Shown piece by piece: positions 31,886-39,883 of a stretch of DNA of 64,000 nt. Both the position numbers and the translations under genes were made by a program. Position 1 is the stretch's first letter. Each line of letters opens with the position of its first letter. The DNA is from Coleofasciculus sp. FACHB-T130 (GTDB taxonomy: Bacteria > Cyanobacteriota > Cyanobacteriia > Cyanobacteriales > FACHB-T130), in contig NZ_JACJOG010000022.1 of the NCBI RefSeq assembly GCF_014695375.1, positions 124,001-188,000 of the forward strand. Direction: 5' to 3'. The notes beneath the pieces were generated by a model, which did no database searches, was not told the origin of the DNA, and saw only the letters and a list, made by a program, of their open reading frames with translations.

Positions 31886-33505
31886 TTACTCTTCATTTAT
31901 CCTGAAATTAGTAGATACAAATTGACAGCGCTCTAAATATATCTTAGCAACTTTATCCATCGGGTTATACCATAAACAATCTTGAAAGAGTTGTGCAGCT
32001 TCATGAAACTTTTGATTTTTGTAAAATAACAAAGCTTTTTCAAATATTGTTTTTGCGCTTAATTTACCATCTTTTAATTCCGCTAAATCCCCATCGAATA
32101 CTTCATAAACTGTTACTTCTTCGGATTTACCTTTTATTTTCACCCGATCGATAATGCGGATGAAATAATCAGATGAATTTTGTAACTGTAAGAAAGTCTG
32201 ATGACTGATTAATAATGACACTCCATACTCTTTCGTCAATCCTTCAATACGGGAGGCTAAGTTGACAGCATCGCTAACGACAGTGCCCTGCATCCGGTTA
32301 TTTCCTCCCACCGTACCCAGCATCAAAGAACCCGTATTGATGCCAATTCCGATTTGAATTGGATGATAACCAGCTTGGGCGCGATGCTGATTATACTCGG
32401 CAAGATTATGTAGCATGGTAATGGCTGCTTTAATCGCATCATCTGCACTGCCGCTAAACAGCGCCATAATCCCATCACCGATATATTTATCAATGAAGCC
32501 ATTATTCTCGGTAATAGCAGGCTCCATGCGGCTTAAAAAGGCATTAATAAATTGAAAATTGTCTGACGGCGTCATTTTTTCTGATAGTGCAGTAAAGTCT
32601 CGAATGTCGGCAAATAATACCGACATTTCCTGCTGCACTTGGTCGCCTAATGTGACATCAATAATGCTTTTTTTCTTCAAAAACTGAAGAAATTCACGGG
32701 GTACAAACCGCTCGTAAGCAGTGTTAAGTTGATAAAGTTGATCGATTAACTGAATTCGCTCTGCTTCTGCCTTCTTGCGTCGCGTGATATCTTGAAAGGC
32801 AGCGATCGCGTAGACAATTTCGCCCTTCTCATCAAAAATTGGCGTTGCCCACACCTCTATCGGGATAATCTTGTCTGCTTGGCGAACCTCCATATCATCA
32901 ACAGTCGAGCAGGAGCCACTCAACGCCAGCGCTAGGGGCTGTTGGGCATTCGGGTACAACCGATCTGTCCCTGCCACATAAGCTTGATAAAGTTCTGGCA
33001 GTTGAGCGGTGGTGTCTTCCGGGACGATGCCCTTGCCGAGAAGCCGCTGTGCCGTATGATTGGCGTAGTAGGGTTTGCCCCTCGCATCAATCACGAAAAC
33101 ACCTACCGGCACGGCTTCTAGAAATTGAGCCAACCTTCTCTCGCTGGCACGTACTGCCTCCTCTGCTTTGTGATGCAACTCAGCTTCCACCCTATCGGAA
33201 TGTTCCGTAGTCGTCTCCAGCAAAATTTCCAAATCGATCTTATCTCTAGTAACGATTGTCAAAAGAGACTGGAGCGCGGCTTGACTCGCTTGTAGTGCTT
33301 CTTCGGTACGCTGGCGTTCGGCAATTTCGGCTTGTAGCTGTTGATTGGACTGATGCAGCTGAGCTTCAACTATATCGGAGTGTTCTGTTGTCGTCTCCAG
33401 CAAGATTTCTAAGTCAGCTTTTTTGTTTTTTAAGTCTTCCAATTCCCGTCGCAGATTTGCGATTTCTAAAAACAGCTGTTCCCTTGAGGGTTGTTCTTCT
33501 TGCAT
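31886..33505 (-). CDS. PAS-domain class III adenylate cyclase
   Basis: The 539-residue protein is predicted to make cAMP from ATP. Residues 1-115 are coiled coil with an internal duplication: LEILLETTTEHSD occurs at 32-44 and again exactly 60 residues later. A PAS domain covers ~120-245 and the cyclase domain ~290-475, followed by a helical repeat-like tail (EKALLFYKNQKFHEAAQLFQ). Catalytic residues are visible: metal Asp300 (LFADIRDF) and Asp344, ATP-specifying Lys340 (FIDKYIGDG) and Thr408, and transition-state Asn415 and Arg419. Thr in place of the usual Asp marks the class IIIb group that includes bicarbonate-stimulated cyclases. It is the last gene of the five-gene signalling cluster. 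Confidence 0.9.
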   Translation of the reverse strand: MQEEQPSREQLFLEIANLRRELEDLKNKKADLEILLETTTEHSDIVEAQLHQSNQQLQAEIAERQRTEEALQASQAALQSLLTIVTRDKIDLEILLETTTEHSDRVEAELHHKAEEAVRASERRLAQFLEAVPVGVFVIDARGKPYYANHTAQRLLGKGIVPEDTTAQLPELYQAYVAGTDRLYPNAQQPLALALSGSCSTVDDMEVRQADKIIPIEVWATPIFDEKGEIVYAIAAFQDITRRKKAEAERIQLIDQLYQLNTAYERFVPREFLQFLKKKSIIDVTLGDQVQQEMSVLFADIRDFTALSEKMTPSDNFQFINAFLSRMEPAITENNGFIDKYIGDGIMALFSGSADDAIKAAITMLHNLAEYNQHRAQAGYHPIQIGIGINTGSLMLGTVGGNNRMQGTVVSDAVNLASRIEGLTKEYGVSLLISHQTFLQLQNSSDYFIRIIDRVKIKGKSEEVTVYEVFDGDLAELKDGKLSAKTIFEKALLFYKNQKFHEAAQLFQDCLWYNPMDKVAKIYLERCQFVSTNFRINEE

Positions 33506-33581
33506 CGCCTTACGATTTGCACTTCGACGAAAATGAACTTATCTAGTTTTCAGTGCCAGTATCTTAGCCTTGTAGGAGTTT

Positions 33582-33926
33582 TTATGCCAATTCCAGCTGT
33601 AAAGAAGGCATTAGCCGCTGCAAATTTTTCAACGACTTACTTTGCCAGGGGATATTCTTAGAGCCTTGTACAATCATCTGCATACTTTCTTTTTGACGCA
33701 CATTGATGACAAATTTCGACAGAACATTGATTCCCGAACTATTCAAAAATTCTAGTTCCCGCAAATTCAAGGTAATTTTTGGTGGCTCTGAATCTACTAG
33801 CTCGTTAAGTAACTTTACGATTGGTGCATATTCTTCCATTCCGCTAAGTCGAAGCGAACCCTGAAAGATCGCTGTTTCAGTAACCGAGTCGTACCAAATG
33901 CTGTAATCTTCGGTCTTAATTTCCAT
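33582..33926 (-). CDS. STAS-domain protein (anti-sigma-factor-antagonist-like)
   Basis: The 114-residue protein is a single STAS domain. Its conserved loop EFLNSSGINVLS places Ser64 where SpoIIAA and RsbV carry the serine that is phosphorylated by the partner kinase and dephosphorylated by a SpoIIE-type phosphatase. Genes for both predicted partners lie in the same cluster. It starts 40 bases after the kinase-like gene and ends 76 bases before the cyclase. No anti-sigma target or sigma factor is nearby, so the cyclase or histidine kinase may be its target (inference). Confidence 0.85.
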   Translation of the reverse strand: MEIKTEDYSIWYDSVTETAIFQGSLRLSGMEEYAPIVKLLNELVDSEPPKITLNLRELEFLNSSGINVLSKFVINVRQKESMQMIVQGSKNIPWQSKSLKNLQRLMPSLQLELA

Positions 33927-33966
33927 TACGCATCAACTCCTTGCATATTCTGAACAACTCGGTAAG

Positions 33967-34551
33967 CTATACTGCCAACTGCACCATTGTGGTCACGGCG
34001 ATCGCTTCCGGCTCCGACTCTTTTTGGATAGTCTCAAACTTCCAACCTAGCTTAGCCTGATAATCGTTCATCATTGTCAAAAAGCCTAGCCCAGATTCGC
34101 TCTCGCTCTCGTCTTCTGCATTTTTTTCTAGCTGGCGAAGATAGAACTCGCTCGGATCGCAGGTGGTTAACTCTGTGATAAATGCCTGAAACTTAGCGAT
34201 CGCGCTTGGATTGATATTGTTCGTACCAAGGAATACCAGGCGATCGTTATGCATTTGCAGCCGAATACTGATAGGTTGCACTGATATGTCATCGTTAAAT
34301 TTCATCGCATTCTCTAGCAACTCATTAGCGATAAAACTAACAGCACTTTTTATCTCTGCTTTTGGGTCGGTTTCGGTCGTATTTTTATTACCAGGAAAGA
34401 AAGTTGCAAAATAGTCAGCCATAAAATCAGCCGATAAACCATTATTGCGCCAGCGTTGCTTTAGGGGGATGGAGGTAGGCGAAAATACAATTGTTAAGCC
34501 TTCCTGACTGCTTGGAAGCTCGTCCCTGAAGTCTCCGAATATTTGAATCAT
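33967..34551 (-). CDS. ATPase-fold kinase-like protein (SiaB/DUF6272-like)
   Basis: From the ATG at 34551 the protein has 194 residues. NELLENAMKF (76-85) matches the N-box of GHKL/HATPase kinases, and SGLGFLTMM (153-161) sits where the second Gly box is expected. The first Gly box (DxGxG) is replaced by GTNNINP, as in the divergent SiaB-type family, so activity cannot be read off. The frame runs another 68 codons upstream but crosses a heptamer repeat array and looks non-coding. Predicted partner of the STAS protein encoded 40 bases downstream. Confidence 0.65.
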   Translation of the reverse strand: MIQIFGDFRDELPSSQEGLTIVFSPTSIPLKQRWRNNGLSADFMADYFATFFPGNKNTTETDPKAEIKSAVSFIANELLENAMKFNDDISVQPISIRLQMHNDRLVFLGTNNINPSAIAKFQAFITELTTCDPSEFYLRQLEKNAEDESESESGLGFLTMMNDYQAKLGWKFETIQKESEPEAIAVTTMVQLAV

Positions 34552-34559
34552 ATCAATTT

Positions 34560-34587
34560 GGTAATTGGTAATTGGTAATTGGTAGTT
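34560..34587. repeat. Heptamer array at the start of the kinase-like gene
   Basis: GGTAATT, GGTAATT, GGTAATT, GGTAGTT run in register, ending 9 bases upstream of the start codon on the minus strand. The array takes the place of a normal leader, and no purine-rich ribosome site is seen on the mRNA strand, which is AATTACC-rich. It may influence translation of the kinase relative to its neighbours. Confidence 0.75.
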
Positions 34588-34857
34588 GGTCATATTTTGA
34601 GTTCTAAGTCTTGAAATATAGTGGTTACTCCTCTCGCTTACAATACATTCTGCTACTTGCTTCTTAACCGCCTCTTTGAAAAGCAAAGAAGGGGAATATG
34701 GAACTGCTCCCTGGTTTTCGGGCAGCGGCAGAGGTGGGATTAAACTGTACTGCATCCAAACGAGAATTACTATAAATAATTCCTTTTAACTCAACATTCA
34801 TTACCAATTACGCATTTTTGCTTGAACATCGCGAAGATGATTTGCTTGTACATTGGC

Positions 34858-36798
34858 TCATTGATTTGCCTCTGTACAGCTAATCGGAATCTCAATGTGG
34901 AATTCTGTTCCTTGCCCTAGTTCAGAGATACATCCAAGCTGTCCCCCATGTTTTTCTACTACAATTTGATGACTGATTGAGAGACCCAATCCAGTGCCTT
35001 TGCCGACTTGCTTGGTTGTAAACAAAGGTTTAAACAACTGTTGCTTTGCCTCTTCTGAAATACCAACTCCATTATCTGCAATCCGAATCAAAATATGAGA
35101 GAAATTAAGCCCAAAGAATGAAGAATCAACTAATTTATTTTCAGTTTTTACCCTTAGATTATTCTGCTTTATTTCCGTGCTAATCCGAATAGTAGGCACA
35201 AGTTTTTGATTTTTCCTGAAAATTCCAGAAGCTATTGCTTCTTCTAGCGCATCAATGGCATTGGCAATGAGATTCATGAACACTTGATTAAGTTGTCCGG
35301 CATAACACTCAACAAGCGGGATATTTTCATATTCTTTAATTAATGTAATTTCTGGACGATTTCCGTTTGAATTTAAGCGATGCTTCAAAATTAGTAGAGT
35401 GCTATCAATGCCATCATGAATATTAAAAAGTGTCTTTCTGGATGTATCTGCACGAGAGAAGGTTCGCAGAGACACGCTAATTTGATGGATACGATCTATT
35501 CCTATTTTCAGAGAAGAAAGTATTTTAGGCAGGTCTTCTGCTAGGAAATCAACATCCATAGCTTGTGCCTCTGATTGGATTTCTGGTACTGGATTTGAAT
35601 AATGCTGTTGGTAAAGTTTTAACAACCTAAGCAAATCGCAGGTGTAGTCGTAGACATAAGTGAGATTGCCAGATAAAAAATTAACTGGATTATTGATTTC
35701 GTGGGCAATTCCTGCGACTAATTGACCAAGAGAAGACATTTTTTCACTTTGTATTAATTGAACTTGAGCTTGCTGCAAATCGCGCAGCGATCGCGCTAAC
35801 TGTTGAGCTTTTTCTCGTTCTCGCGCTTCGCTTGCCCTTAGAGATTGCTCAATCTGCTTGCGCTCAGTGATATCAATAATGGTTCCCTCGTAGTAGAGTA
35901 AGGTGCCGTTGGCATCACAAATCCCGCGAGTATTCTCGGAAACCCAGATGATGCTGCCATCTTGGCGATAAATTTGATACTCGAATCCTTTAACTTCACC
36001 CTGTTTGGTTAATAAAGCTAAGAGGTTCTTGCGGCATTTCGGGTCAACATAAACTTGATCTTTGATTTCTGGAATGCTACTCATCATCTCCTCAGGAGAC
36101 TCATAGCCGTAAATTTTTGCCAGTGCCGGATTGACACAAATGTAGTGCCCGTCTAATGTAATCTGGAAAATCCCCTCAATGGCATTTTCAAAGATACTGC
36201 GATACCTCGTTTCCGCTTGTTGCAGCGCTTCCGCGGATCGCTTGCGCTCGGTGGTGTCTTGAAAGGCAGCAATCGCATAAGCAATATCGCCCCGGTCATC
36301 AAAAATGGGGGACGCCCACACCTCTATGGGAATTATTTTGTCTGTTTGATAAATCTCCGTATCGTCAACGGTTACTTTTTCGCCTCTCAACGCTCGTATA
36401 ATTGGCAGGCGATCGCTGGGGTACAATTGCTCTGTGCCTGCGAGATAAAGTTGATAAGTCTCTGGCAATTCCTCGACAGTGGCTTCTGACATAATGCCTT
36501 TGCCTAGGATTTGCTGTGCCGTCTGATTGGCGTAGTAAGATTTACCGCTAGCATCAACCACGAAGACGCCCACTGGCAGGGCTTCCAGAAATTGCGCCAG
36601 CCTGCGATCGCTTTGTTTTCCCGCCTCCACTGCCTTGTCATACAACTGCGCTGCAACCGTATCCGAGTGTTCGGTAGTATTCTCCAGCAAGATTTCCAAG
36701 TCAACTTTTTCTCTTTTCAAGTCTTCCAATTCTTGGGACAAGCTTTCTATCTTCAAAAAGAGCTGTTCTGTTAATGATTTTTCTTCCTCAATTGCCAT
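34858..36798 (-). CDS. PAS/PAS sensor histidine kinase
   Basis: The 646-residue soluble kinase has a coiled coil with LEILLENTTEHSD (34-46), a first PAS (~60-185), a second PAS with PAC (~195-315), a short coiled coil, HisKA with GIAHEINNPVNF (His366) and HATPase with LIANAIDAL, DNGVGI and GTGLGLS. The first ~185 residues closely match the N-terminus of the cyclase three genes downstream. No receiver domain is fused and no response regulator is adjacent. It lies 289 bases after the transporter-phosphatase gene. The input ligand is unknown. Confidence 0.92.
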   Translation of the reverse strand: MAIEEEKSLTEQLFLKIESLSQELEDLKREKVDLEILLENTTEHSDTVAAQLYDKAVEAGKQSDRRLAQFLEALPVGVFVVDASGKSYYANQTAQQILGKGIMSEATVEELPETYQLYLAGTEQLYPSDRLPIIRALRGEKVTVDDTEIYQTDKIIPIEVWASPIFDDRGDIAYAIAAFQDTTERKRSAEALQQAETRYRSIFENAIEGIFQITLDGHYICVNPALAKIYGYESPEEMMSSIPEIKDQVYVDPKCRKNLLALLTKQGEVKGFEYQIYRQDGSIIWVSENTRGICDANGTLLYYEGTIIDITERKQIEQSLRASEAREREKAQQLARSLRDLQQAQVQLIQSEKMSSLGQLVAGIAHEINNPVNFLSGNLTYVYDYTCDLLRLLKLYQQHYSNPVPEIQSEAQAMDVDFLAEDLPKILSSLKIGIDRIHQISVSLRTFSRADTSRKTLFNIHDGIDSTLLILKHRLNSNGNRPEITLIKEYENIPLVECYAGQLNQVFMNLIANAIDALEEAIASGIFRKNQKLVPTIRISTEIKQNNLRVKTENKLVDSSFFGLNFSHILIRIADNGVGISEEAKQQLFKPLFTTKQVGKGTGLGLSISHQIVVEKHGGQLGCISELGQGTEFHIEIPISCTEANQ

Positions 36799-37087
36799 AA
36801 ATTTTTATCTTTGCCAAAAAATGAATTACCCTAGCAAGGGATATTTTTAGAGTTTTGTATCACTATTTAAATATTCCCTTTCTTAGGGGCTTTTGTAACA
36901 AACTTTACAGAACATTTACTTACAAACTGGTTAAAAGTTCTAGCTCCAGCAATTTGAGTTTGAGAGCGGCAGCAAACTCACGAAAGATAAAGTGCAAGTT
37001 CTATACAAACAGCGCAGACTACAGCCTTTGGTGTGAAGGCAATGCAAGCTGTTTTGCATCTACAACAGATAAGAAGTCAAACTCGGC

Positions 37088-39883
37088 TTATTTCTGTTTA
37101 AGAATCAGCAAAGTGATGTCATCGTAAATTTTTTGCTCACCGATATGCCGTCGCAGATCCTCAATCACAGCTTGTTTAATTTCCTCAACGGTCTGTTGGC
37201 AGCTGCGGCTGACTATGTCGCACAGCCGATCTAACCCGTATTGCACCTTGAATCTATTTTCGGCTTCAGTAATGCCATCGGTGTACAGCACCACGACGTC
37301 CCCTGAGTGCAATTGCAACTGAATCTGGGCAACGAAATTGGTAATGTCTGCTTCTAGCCCAATCGGGAAGCCTAAATCAACCGTGTCTATCCGTTCCACC
37401 TGACCGCCGGAACGCACAACAATCATTTCTTCGTGTTGCCCCGTCAGGCGTAGCGTTCCCCCTTGGTAGTCCAATAAGGAAAGGCTAAGATTTTTATCGG
37501 AACTCATCCGCTGCACATTGTGATAAATAGTGCGGTTGAGTACGTCCAAAAATTTTTTGGGGTCGGTTTCGTTGTTTTCCAGTAGCGTCCGGACTGCTGT
37601 CTGCACCATGATCGTTAAGACGCCGCTTTCGAGTCCGTGTCCAGTGACATCGCCGATCCCGATTTTGACTTTATCCTCATAATTGAGTACATCGTAGTAG
37701 TCGCCGCCTACCTCTTCGGCAGGTTCCATAAAGCTGGCAATCTCCAGTCCAGGAAGCGATTCAAGTTCTTGCTGTTTAGGCAATAGCATCTGTTGCAGTC
37801 GGCGCGTTACGGCTAACTCAGCGCTCATGCGGATATTGTCGGCTTGAAGACGTTCGTTGAGGGCAAGAATCTCGGCGTTGGCGTGAGCGAGTTCGCTGGT
37901 GCGTTCGTCAACTTTTTGTTCCAAAGTGTGGCTGTAATTCCGCACCGCCTCCTCAGCTTGCTGGCGTTCGGTAATATCGCGCACCAGTACTACATACTCT
38001 TGAAAGTCCTGATTGAAACGGTTAGAGACGGCTGCCTCAACGATGGTGGGATGTTCGGGCGTTTTTAGGGTATGTTCGCTCCGACTCGACCAATTATCTG
38101 GTTGACCTGCCAAGGCGGGAAATATCTGGTTGAGACGACATCCTAGGAGATTGGGAGCGATCGCTTTTAATAGTTGCTCGGCGGCTGGGTTGGCTTGCCG
38201 AATAACGCCCTTTTCATCGACGACGAGAATCCCGTCAATGGCAATATTAAACAAATGCTCAGACTGTTCTCTGGCTTCGACAATTGCCATGACTTGGGGC
38301 AAACTTGTCCAGCAAGCGATCGCTACCCCAACAAAGGCAGCGATCAGCAGCATCACCACATAGAGATTGTTGCCATTCTGACCTAGGTCTACCGCCCCAA
38401 TTCTGGCTCTAAACATCCAGCTAATCGTGGCAGCGCTACAGATCAGTAAGATCAGGATGACTACCTGAAACCCTACAAAATCGGATATTTTAGTTTGCGA
38501 TCGCCCTCGGTAATGTTGAATCCACCAAGCAGCATGAAAGGGTGCCCACCGGATGCGGCGTATCACCCGATCTGCTGCCAAAATCCCTAGGGGAAATAGC
38601 AACCCAATCAAGAAGTCTTTCCAACCCCAAGCCAAACCCCCAACCACTAAGACAACGACTTCCAGCAAAAAGAAGACCCCCGACCACCAAGGCAGAAATA
38701 CCTCCGGTCTCTTTCGGCGCAGCCACAGTGCTAAATGTACCGACATGATAGACACAAACCAGCCGGTGTTACTCACCACCGCAATCCGGGCGACATCCCC
38801 CCAAGCTAGACAAATGAAAGTGAACAACAACGTCAGCACCAAAGCGGGACCGAATACACCCCGTCGGGACACCACAGCGAACACGGGAGATAAATGTCCG
38901 TCTGTAGCAAGTTGGTACAGCATTCGGGGACAGTTGGAAAGCACCGTCGCGCAACTCAGAAGCGACCCAGCAGCGAGAAAAAAGGTAACGATGATCGCTG
39001 CCGACTGCCCCCAGAACGGCGTAGAAACTGCTAACAAATTTAAGAAAGTGTCACTACCCAAACCTGGGTCGGTTGCTAAGCGCATCAGTACCCAGGAACC
39101 CCCCAGAAAGATGGGCGGCATGATCCAACAGGAGATACTTAGAAACCGCAACGTTTCATCAGGGCGTCGGCTATCAGCAACAAATGCAGACGCAGATTCA
39201 CAAGCGTAGGTCGTGTAGGTGACGAAGAATAACCACTTCGCCCAATCCACAAAAGAGGGAGGCGACCAACTGGATGGGAAAAACCCAGGACTTGCTGGGG
39301 AAATGGCTAACCAGCCGATGCCAAATAGACAAAAAGCGAGTAAAAGTCCAATTGCCGGGATAACAAAAAATAAGTGCAGGATACTTAAAGCGCGGGTGCC
39401 GCTAAACGCCAAAATAAACGCGATCAGCGTCAAGCCAACTTTCACAAGAGTATCGGGACAAGCAATTCCTAAAGGCTCCAGGTTTACCTTAATGAGTTCT
39501 GTAAGGACAACCACGTTAATCGCCAGCGTCGAAACCCAGCTGAAGAAGTAACCAACTGCCGCGTAACGGGCTAACCCCGGATAGTGCTTTAGCAATCGGG
39601 TGGTATAGTTGGGCGTTCCTCCGGCTACGTCAGGAAAATGCCTGCCTAAGCGTTTTACTTGCAGGTTTAGCAAGATGCCAAGGATCGTTCCTGGCAACCA
39701 GACAAAAATAGCCCCCGTACCGAGAGCAATGTGCAGTACGGGGGCTATGGCAGGCCAAGAGATATGAGCTGTTACACCAAAGCCCCACGTTTCCAGAGAG
39801 CTAAGACTGCGGGGTAAGCGCGGGGCTGAGTACCGATTCGGAGGCGCAGAGTCTATGATTGTCGGCAATGGTGTTGAGGTCAT
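37088..39883 (-). CDS. APC-type transporter fused to PAS and SpoIIE/PP2C phosphatase
   Basis: The 931-residue protein starts with an amino acid-polyamine-organocation permease-like region of about 12-14 helices (residues ~35-530; WGFGVTAHISWPAIAPVLHI near the start). A PAS domain (~545-640), a coiled coil (~640-697) and a PP2C-family serine phosphatase (~700-931) follow. Phosphatase metal-site motifs are intact: VGGDYYDV (Asp728), GDVTGHGLESG, LYTDGITEAEN and YDDITLLIL. By family the phosphatase should act on a phospho-serine STAS protein, and one is encoded in the same cluster. The permease may transport or only sense its ligand. It is first in transcription order. Confidence 0.9.
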   Translation of the reverse strand: MTSTPLPTIIDSAPPNRYSAPRLPRSLSSLETWGFGVTAHISWPAIAPVLHIALGTGAIFVWLPGTILGILLNLQVKRLGRHFPDVAGGTPNYTTRLLKHYPGLARYAAVGYFFSWVSTLAINVVVLTELIKVNLEPLGIACPDTLVKVGLTLIAFILAFSGTRALSILHLFFVIPAIGLLLAFCLFGIGWLAISPASPGFFPSSWSPPSFVDWAKWLFFVTYTTYACESASAFVADSRRPDETLRFLSISCWIMPPIFLGGSWVLMRLATDPGLGSDTFLNLLAVSTPFWGQSAAIIVTFFLAAGSLLSCATVLSNCPRMLYQLATDGHLSPVFAVVSRRGVFGPALVLTLLFTFICLAWGDVARIAVVSNTGWFVSIMSVHLALWLRRKRPEVFLPWWSGVFFLLEVVVLVVGGLAWGWKDFLIGLLFPLGILAADRVIRRIRWAPFHAAWWIQHYRGRSQTKISDFVGFQVVILILLICSAATISWMFRARIGAVDLGQNGNNLYVVMLLIAAFVGVAIACWTSLPQVMAIVEAREQSEHLFNIAIDGILVVDEKGVIRQANPAAEQLLKAIAPNLLGCRLNQIFPALAGQPDNWSSRSEHTLKTPEHPTIVEAAVSNRFNQDFQEYVVLVRDITERQQAEEAVRNYSHTLEQKVDERTSELAHANAEILALNERLQADNIRMSAELAVTRRLQQMLLPKQQELESLPGLEIASFMEPAEEVGGDYYDVLNYEDKVKIGIGDVTGHGLESGVLTIMVQTAVRTLLENNETDPKKFLDVLNRTIYHNVQRMSSDKNLSLSLLDYQGGTLRLTGQHEEMIVVRSGGQVERIDTVDLGFPIGLEADITNFVAQIQLQLHSGDVVVLYTDGITEAENRFKVQYGLDRLCDIVSRSCQQTVEEIKQAVIEDLRRHIGEQKIYDDITLLILKQK

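Follow-up and report, generated by a model that had tools for sequence, protein, structure and literature searches.

A coiled-coil module common to an adenylate cyclase and a histidine kinase may connect both to a SiaABC-like partner switch in Coleofasciculus sp. FACHB-T130

Five genes in a 64,000-nucleotide stretch of Coleofasciculus sp. FACHB-T130 (the window) probably encode a partner switch like Pseudomonas SiaABC-SiaD that belongs to a separate, modular lineage. The reading rests on protein families, predicted folds, the distribution of a shared module and analogy. A class III nucleotide cyclase and a histidine kinase in the cluster begin with the same coiled-coil module, and the unphosphorylated STAS protein of the switch would bind this module and alter the dimer geometry of either enzyme. 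What is new is a common socket through which a single phosphoprotein family would act on many signalling enzymes. The first-pass annotation of this DNA, made from the letters and their open reading frames, had missed what links the switch to its output.

The open reading frame list together with Pfam and NCBIfam domains bears out five genes at 31886-39883, all on the minus strand and in the order described earlier (Table 1). The gaps of 40-290 bases given at that time hold for three gene pairs (289, 40 and 76 bases); with the kinase-like start placed at 34551, the gap between the histidine kinase and kinase-like genes is 306 bases. The host genome (6.2 Mb) contains three module copies only, and one slr1658 and one slr1659 protein above cut-off, all inside the cluster. 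The first-pass annotation had proposed to look for conserved linkage in relatives, and all five genes are collinear and 90-94% identical in the sampled congener (G039), so the cluster is not a chance arrangement. A promoter scan of the cluster gave 15 promoter-like sites versus 15.5 in shuffles, a terminator scan gave 12 terminator-like sites versus 9.2 (sd 4.0), and an Rfam search gave no match.

Table 1. Features of the five-gene cluster, in window positions.
Feature	Position	Strand	Basis
Permease-PAS-SpoIIE phosphatase, 931 aa	37088..39883	-	Pfam, NCBIfam; G039 orthologue 93% identical
Phosphatase, APC permease part, aa 1-480	38444-39883	-	
Phosphatase, PAS, aa 541-591		-	
Phosphatase, SpoIIE, aa 736-929	37097-37678	-	
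Histidine kinase, 646 aa: N-terminal coiled-coil module, two PAS, HisKA/HATPase_c	34858..36798	-	Pfam; module profile
Module of histidine kinase, one copy, residues 3-57	36625..36798	-	Module profile
Kinase-like GHKL protein, slr1658 family, 194 aa from likely start	33967..34551	-	NCBIfam, alignments, predicted fold
STAS protein, slr1659 superfamily, 114 aa	33582..33926	-	NCBIfam, alignments, predicted fold
Ser63 codon, candidate phosphosite	33738..33740	-	RsfB alignment
Ser64 codon	33735-33737	-	
Class III nucleotide cyclase, 539 aa: two module copies, PAS, cyclase domain	31886..33505	-	Pfam, CyaB alignment
Cyclase domain, aa 290-465	32111-32638	-	
Cyclase module copy 1, residues 1-56	33338..33505	-	Module profile
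Cyclase module copy 2, residues 60-116	33158..33331	-	Module profile

The phosphatase matches AA_permease (E 4.7e-6), PAS_8 (2.4e-5) and SpoIIE (2.3e-37) in Pfam. Its SpoIIE domain is clear, and the whole protein scores 77.8 bits against the SiaA equivalog NF038263, which has a cut-off of 700. The histidine kinase has two PAS domains and HATPase_c (1.4e-19), with HisKA slightly under cut-off, and the cyclase has PAS and Guanylate_cyc (E 1.1e-20). In an alignment with solved CyaB, the cyclase keeps the catalytic positions ADIRDF, DKYIGDGIMALF and GTVVSDAVNLASR, which we take to be the two metal aspartates, the substrate Lys and Thr, and the transition-state Asn/Arg. These residues are those of a class III adenylate cyclase, and adenylate cyclase activity is predicted. 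Class III cyclases function as dimers, which suits a stalk-driven switch.

The kinase-like protein belongs to the slr1658 families of NCBIfam (NF052618/NF047703, 278 bits against a cut-off of 200 and 254 against 100) and matches DUF6272 in Pfam (28.7 bits, cut-off 26.6). It scores 27.5 bits against the SiaB-subfamily model NF038262, for which the cut-off is 85. The open frame extends up to 34755, and the gene probably starts at 34551. This start is favoured because a methionine lies at most 8 residues before the FGDF-like motif in 57/66 aligned rows of the slr1658 family, the window included, and because the extra 204 bases contain a short repeat. That tandem repeat (ATTACCA-like, 34555-34600) lies directly before the likely start and makes the longer frame look coding. 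The N-box NELLENAMK is conserved, and the family alignment contains no obvious DxGxG box. When the AlphaFold model (pLDDT 86.9) was compared with solved folds using VIA-align, SiaB ranked first (Z 13.6, 156 residues aligned, 3.2 A) and SpoIIAB second (Z 12.0). In Foldseek's own ranking SpoIIAB is first, and SiaB is absent among the matches listed.

The STAS protein falls in the slr1659 superfamily (NF047705, 176 bits against a cut-off of 100) and has no Pfam match at E 1e-3. Its scores against the SiaC family (PF09345, 16.5 bits, cut-off 24.5) and the STAS model (19.2 bits) are below cut-off and point the same way as the fold matches. SiaC came first for the AlphaFold model (pLDDT 94.4) in VIA-align (Z 12.8, 111 aligned, 2.5 A), in a tie with two anti-sigma antagonists (Z 12.6 and 12.4; structures 4qtp and RsfB). 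With SiaB and SiaC at the head of the VIA-align rankings, the earlier comparison with SiaABC stands. The description of the cluster as SiaABCD-like with a cAMP output was right in kind; the phosphatase and the STAS protein score under the curated cut-offs for SiaA and SiaC.

Ser63 and Ser64, in the conserved FLNSSGI of the STAS protein, are both invariant in 33 slr1659 sequences, the window included. Ser64 had been singled out before. The alignment with solved RsfB puts a serine opposite Ser63 and a valine opposite Ser64; Ser64 was therefore rejected as first choice, and Ser63 is the likely phosphosite. In the STAS model Ser63 is the first residue of helix 63-78. T68 of SiaC is placed in the N-terminal portion of helix 2 in the excerpted text of PMC8457831.

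The cyclase and the histidine kinase share an N-terminal module of roughly 58 residues with the core DLEILLETTTEHSD, in two copies in the cyclase and one in the kinase. The core of the second cyclase copy is located 60 residues after that of the first. The module is a leucine-rich coiled coil, and D31, L32, E33 and H42 are invariant in an alignment of 26 rows. The module profile comes from loci that have slr1659 at their centre and was seeded by a motif search over all 1380 open frames there. Searches of Pfam and NCBIfam with the module gave nothing above cut-off, and its core letters occur in no open PubMed Central paper searched. In a PDB search coiled-coil and WD-repeat matches lead, and SiaD is absent among the matches listed, so the analogy with SiaD is one of layout, not of sequence.

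Linkage was scored in 80 named GTDB loci around slr1659, which comprise 1312 kb. Of the 58 module domains in this DNA, 56 follow slr1659 on its own strand at a distance of no more than 2.5 kb, and the other two lie upstream (L048 and L070). By locus, 46/80 carry a module downstream by this measure, and 34/80 have none within 2.5 kb downstream. A kinase-like gene is found within 1.5 kb upstream of slr1659 in 57/80 loci and SpoIIE within 6 kb in 33/80; all three partners occur in 19/80. A module protein comes after slr1659, with no kinase-like gene or phosphatase adjoining, at 21 loci, many of which belong to Microcoleus, Tychonema and their relatives. 20 of these proteins are histidine kinases by profile, as at L045, L050, L057 and similar loci, and the remaining one (L044) is cut by a contig end. 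Since L057 is on the same chromosome as the full cluster L101, cross-phosphorylation would be possible there.

The genome-wide searches, unlike the loci behind the profile, were not centred on slr1659. Presence of slr1659 in whole genomes was defined as a score above the family cut-off; weaker matches, in all likelihood to generic STAS proteins, did not count as presence. Among the matches listed for an order-level sample of 148 genomes, 66 have both slr1659 and the module, 15 slr1659 only, 3 the module only and 64 neither (module in 69 genomes, slr1659 in 81). Two of the three module-only genomes have weak matches (E near 3.6e-4), and the other is 71% complete. Kinship was addressed by a per-genus table and a within-family shuffle. 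With one genome per genus the counts are 36 both, 9 slr1659 only, 1 module only and 35 neither, and 20,000 rounds of shuffling within families gave a maximum of 63 genomes with both versus the 66 observed. For the genomes of 4.5-7.0 Mb (n=85) the counts are 48, 7, 0 and 30, in the same order. The odds ratio with slr1659 is 94 for the module versus 2.6 for a control signalling trait, the permease fusion.

A phylum sample of 386 cyanobacterial genomes gave 42 with both, 11 with slr1659 only, none with the module only and 333 with neither; the absences are softer here because scoring took in only the best first-look candidates of each genome, 16 for the module or 11 for slr1659. 27/42 module genomes are shared with the order sample, and in the 15 outside it slr1659 is no more than 5 kb away from 18/23 module genes. 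In the order sample, 47 of at least 111 module genes are on a different contig from slr1659 or over 5 kb away from it, where the distances also took in four slr1659 fragments below cut-off. The module is thus nearly restricted to slr1659 genomes. This near-strict co-occurrence and the common N-terminal module support the suggestion, made in the first-pass annotation, that the STAS protein is linked to both the cyclase and the histidine kinase.

Outside the cyanobacteria, modules are present in 5/5 Beggiatoa-like genomes with slr1659; one adjoins slr1659 at L066, and the other four genomes have none within 2.5 kb downstream. Three rhizobial slr1659-bearing replicons carry no module. Two rhizobial plasmid clusters (L032:1521-8339 and L033:1553-8339) encode a GGDEF-EAL protein, a small gene product, a STAS-like domain, SpoIIE, slr1658 and slr1659; the STAS-like domain has NNT in place of the slr1659 NSS and is fused to a methyltransferase (Pfam, L032). 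The replicons of these two clusters showed no module. No recognised module was found in 15/81 slr1659 genomes of the order sample and 11/53 of the phylum sample. Because so many slr1659 loci and genomes are without one, slr1659 must have other targets as well, or some modules are too diverged to be recognised. One genome (G440) has the kinase-STAS pair with its modules far away, and another (G098) has a REC-PAS-cyclase without a module behind the switch.

The domains behind the module are varied. They include GGDEF (L037, L038; L046 by motif), GGDEF-EAL (L066), histidine kinase (L042, L062), histidine kinase-REC-cyclase (L038), PAS only (L075, L102), PAS with a sub-threshold HAMP (L112) and a sub-threshold HAMP only (L110). 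L099 has a stand-alone module gene with no recognised domain after the module. 19 stretches with a distant module gene gave GGDEF letters in 6, the cyclase profile in 6, PAS only in 1 and none of the profiles in 6, five of which are GGDEF-like by eye. In four cyclases among the distant module genes the module is in mid-protein.

Outputs were mapped under nine labels on a tree of 40 STAS proteins, from 39/46 downstream-module loci plus the window. L060, L063, L071, L076, L082, L083 and L106 were omitted as near copies, and L044, whose module gene is the truncated one, was labelled histidine kinase by likeness. The tree needs 11 changes versus a minimum of 8 and a shuffled mean of 19.9, so the labels cluster strongly. 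Well-supported branches force at least two changes for histidine kinase, one for cyclase and two for GGDEF. The evidence for output exchange on this tree is weaker than first thought; what speaks for exchange is how varied the outputs are, not a history of frequent switching.

The phosphatases of the switch carry dCache-HAMP, CHASE, Amt-PAS, Ser/Thr kinase-AAA-GAF, HisKA-REC, dCache-histidine kinase-REC or permease-PAS sensors. The family of the permease part occurs in at least 44/148 order-sample genomes and is related to permease-PAS-histidine-kinase fusions. Its fusion to SpoIIE was found in at least 3/148 genomes (the window genome, the congener G039 and, from a different family, G065) when the best 11 candidates per genome were scored. 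Among eight permease loci examined, two have a SpoIIE end (window and congener) and five a histidine kinase end; at L157 PAS was seen, and neither SpoIIE nor a histidine kinase lies within the stretch examined. With a SpoIIE end at only 2/8 loci, the permease-phosphatase was rejected as the conserved heart of the system. The permease-PAS-SpoIIE sensor is not a constant component of the switch, whose sensors are swapped freely.

Several sensor genes were noted in passing. The window genome has a second permease fusion (L190:129-3038, G000:C40), a permease-PAS-histidine kinase with a 65% identical permease part. The G065 relative (G065:C1:5276946-5284840), whose permease part contains stop codons and which has an slr1659 fragment at a distance of about 5 kb, is perhaps a decaying copy of the window cluster. 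Amt-PAS-SpoIIE phosphatases, candidate ammonium-sensing phosphatases, stand at the head of slr1658-slr1659 clusters at L046:1249-3747 and L068:6654-9242. A 1798-aa switch phosphatase (L038:451-5847) has Ser/Thr kinase, AAA, GAF and SpoIIE domains, and L041, L043, L100 and L102 also encode long SpoIIE proteins (1659-1778 aa). At L048:4395-9316 a histidine kinase, a small receiver-like protein and a HisKA-REC-SpoIIE phosphatase lie upstream of the switch. This arrangement is a two-component input feeding a partner switch; the phosphatase assignment is by Pfam for L048, and L070, L108, L111, L168 and L169 are similar by letters. The Calothrix and Rivularia loci L113 and L099 have repeated slr1658 or slr1659 genes, then SpoIIE genes, in a different gene order.

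In the proposed switch the permease/PAS part would steer the SpoIIE phosphatase, which together with the slr1658 kinase would decide whether the slr1659 STAS protein carries a phosphate, with Ser63 as the most likely site. In its unphosphorylated form the STAS protein would bind the module, probably in pairs along a parallel dimeric stalk, and would thereby change the geometry of the dimer formed by the enzyme that follows. The cyclase would offer two such binding sites and the histidine kinase one. According to the excerpts of PMC8457831, SiaC pairs bind two repeated motifs on the parallel dimeric SiaD stalk and convert an inactive oligomer to an active dimer, and phosphate on T68 prevents SiaC from binding to SiaD. 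By this analogy we infer that the STAS protein is active when unphosphorylated and that its binding switches the cyclase on, so that the phosphatase sensor would raise cAMP and alter the histidine kinase.

The module might instead be a generic dimerisation stalk that was spread by domain shuffling and binds no STAS protein, with a neighbourhood of shuffled regulatory genes. Its leucine-rich coiled coil, the 47 module genes away from slr1659, and the PAS sequence beside the module, which is 59% identical over 175 aa between the window cyclase and the G039 histidine kinase, would all agree with this. We consider it unlikely, because none of the 333 phylum-sample genomes without slr1659 above cut-off has the module, because the invariant D, L, E and H seem to go beyond the needs of a heptad, and because even the stand-alone module gene (L099) and the one with a weak HAMP (L110) are directly behind slr1659. 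A classical anti-sigma switch is very unlikely. Here the kinase-like protein would be an anti-sigma factor, the STAS protein its antagonist and a sigma factor the output, with the cyclase and the histidine kinase as bystanders. The tie of the STAS model with RsfB-type antagonists, the high rank of SpoIIAB for the kinase-like model in both fold comparisons and the existence of IcfG-type systems speak for such a switch. Against it, Pfam finds no sigma domain in the five cluster proteins, SiaB is the nearest kinase-like fold by VIA-align, and the protein after slr1659 in the 46/80 linked loci bears a module, usually with an enzyme domain where examined.

The same wiring could also run with the opposite sign. 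Phosphorylated or module-bound STAS protein would then keep the cyclase and the kinase off, and the phosphatase would release or repress the output. We regard this version as rather unlikely, since unphosphorylated SiaC binds and activates SiaD (excerpts of PMC8457831) and since a phosphate on the serine at the start of helix 2 in the STAS model would, by analogy with T68, block binding.

If the partner switch operates through the module as proposed, it would show a SiaC-like switch gone modular at both ends, with many sensors and many signalling enzymes. The chances seem about even that the module is a general plug. The one STAS phosphoprotein of each switch would then be a diffusible trans hub that sets cAMP, c-di-GMP and histidine-kinase signalling together by gripping this socket on any enzyme bearing it, whether encoded next to the switch or not, and evolutionary rewiring would proceed by moving the socket and swapping sensors on the phosphatase. 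A socket recognisable in sequence predicts slr1659 targets from genomes in three signalling currencies, each testable singly. The inputs to cAMP in cyanobacteria include bicarbonate and light, and the window version would tie a permease-like sensor to cAMP.

Transporters fused through PAS to a signalling enzyme are familiar from CbrA and the Amt-histidine kinases. They differ from the window protein, in which the enzyme is a SpoIIE phosphatase, an arrangement also seen in the Amt-PAS-SpoIIE proteins of relatives. The slr1658 and slr1659 families are little studied, and Zer et al. (2018, Plant J) is reportedly the reference on Synechocystis Slr1658. The outputs of cyanobacterial STAS switches are poorly known, to judge from excerpts of two papers. 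Synechocystis Slr1658 and Slr1659 belong to the same families as the window kinase-like and STAS proteins; an slr1658 mutant had reduced recovery from iron limitation and Pgr5 overexpression, the mechanism is stated there to be unidentified, and the excerpts propose no output (PMC7555055). Nostoc punctiforme HmpU-V-W is likewise a cyanobacterial partner switch with a STAS protein described as output, and the downstream effector of HmpV is described as undefined (excerpts of PMC6495340). Pseudomonas HsbA-HsbD and Sinorhizobium BgrUVW-BgrR are also STAS partner switches, acting on a diguanylate cyclase; they differ in their GGDEF output, and the excerpts of PMC7647112 describe no module common to enzyme classes.

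The closest comparison is with Pseudomonas aeruginosa SiaABCD, as described in excerpts of PMC7647112 and PMC8457831. The window proteins are below the SiaA, SiaB-subfamily and SiaC cut-offs, Ser63 in slr1659 stands in place of Thr68 in SiaC, and the window phosphatase has a permease sensor. The Pseudomonas output is a GGDEF enzyme, whereas the window has a class III cyclase and a histidine kinase and no diguanylate cyclase. SiaD has no sequence match to the module, and its sites are spaced by 32 residues (S50 to S82) versus 60 between the window cyclase modules. The window kinase-like protein resembles SiaB by its DUF6272 match and by VIA-align, and SpoIIAB by Foldseek. Both systems share a SpoIIE/PP2C phosphatase, a single-domain target of the SiaC fold and an adjoining output enzyme with a helical stalk, which has two repeated SiaC sites in SiaD and two modules in the window cyclase.
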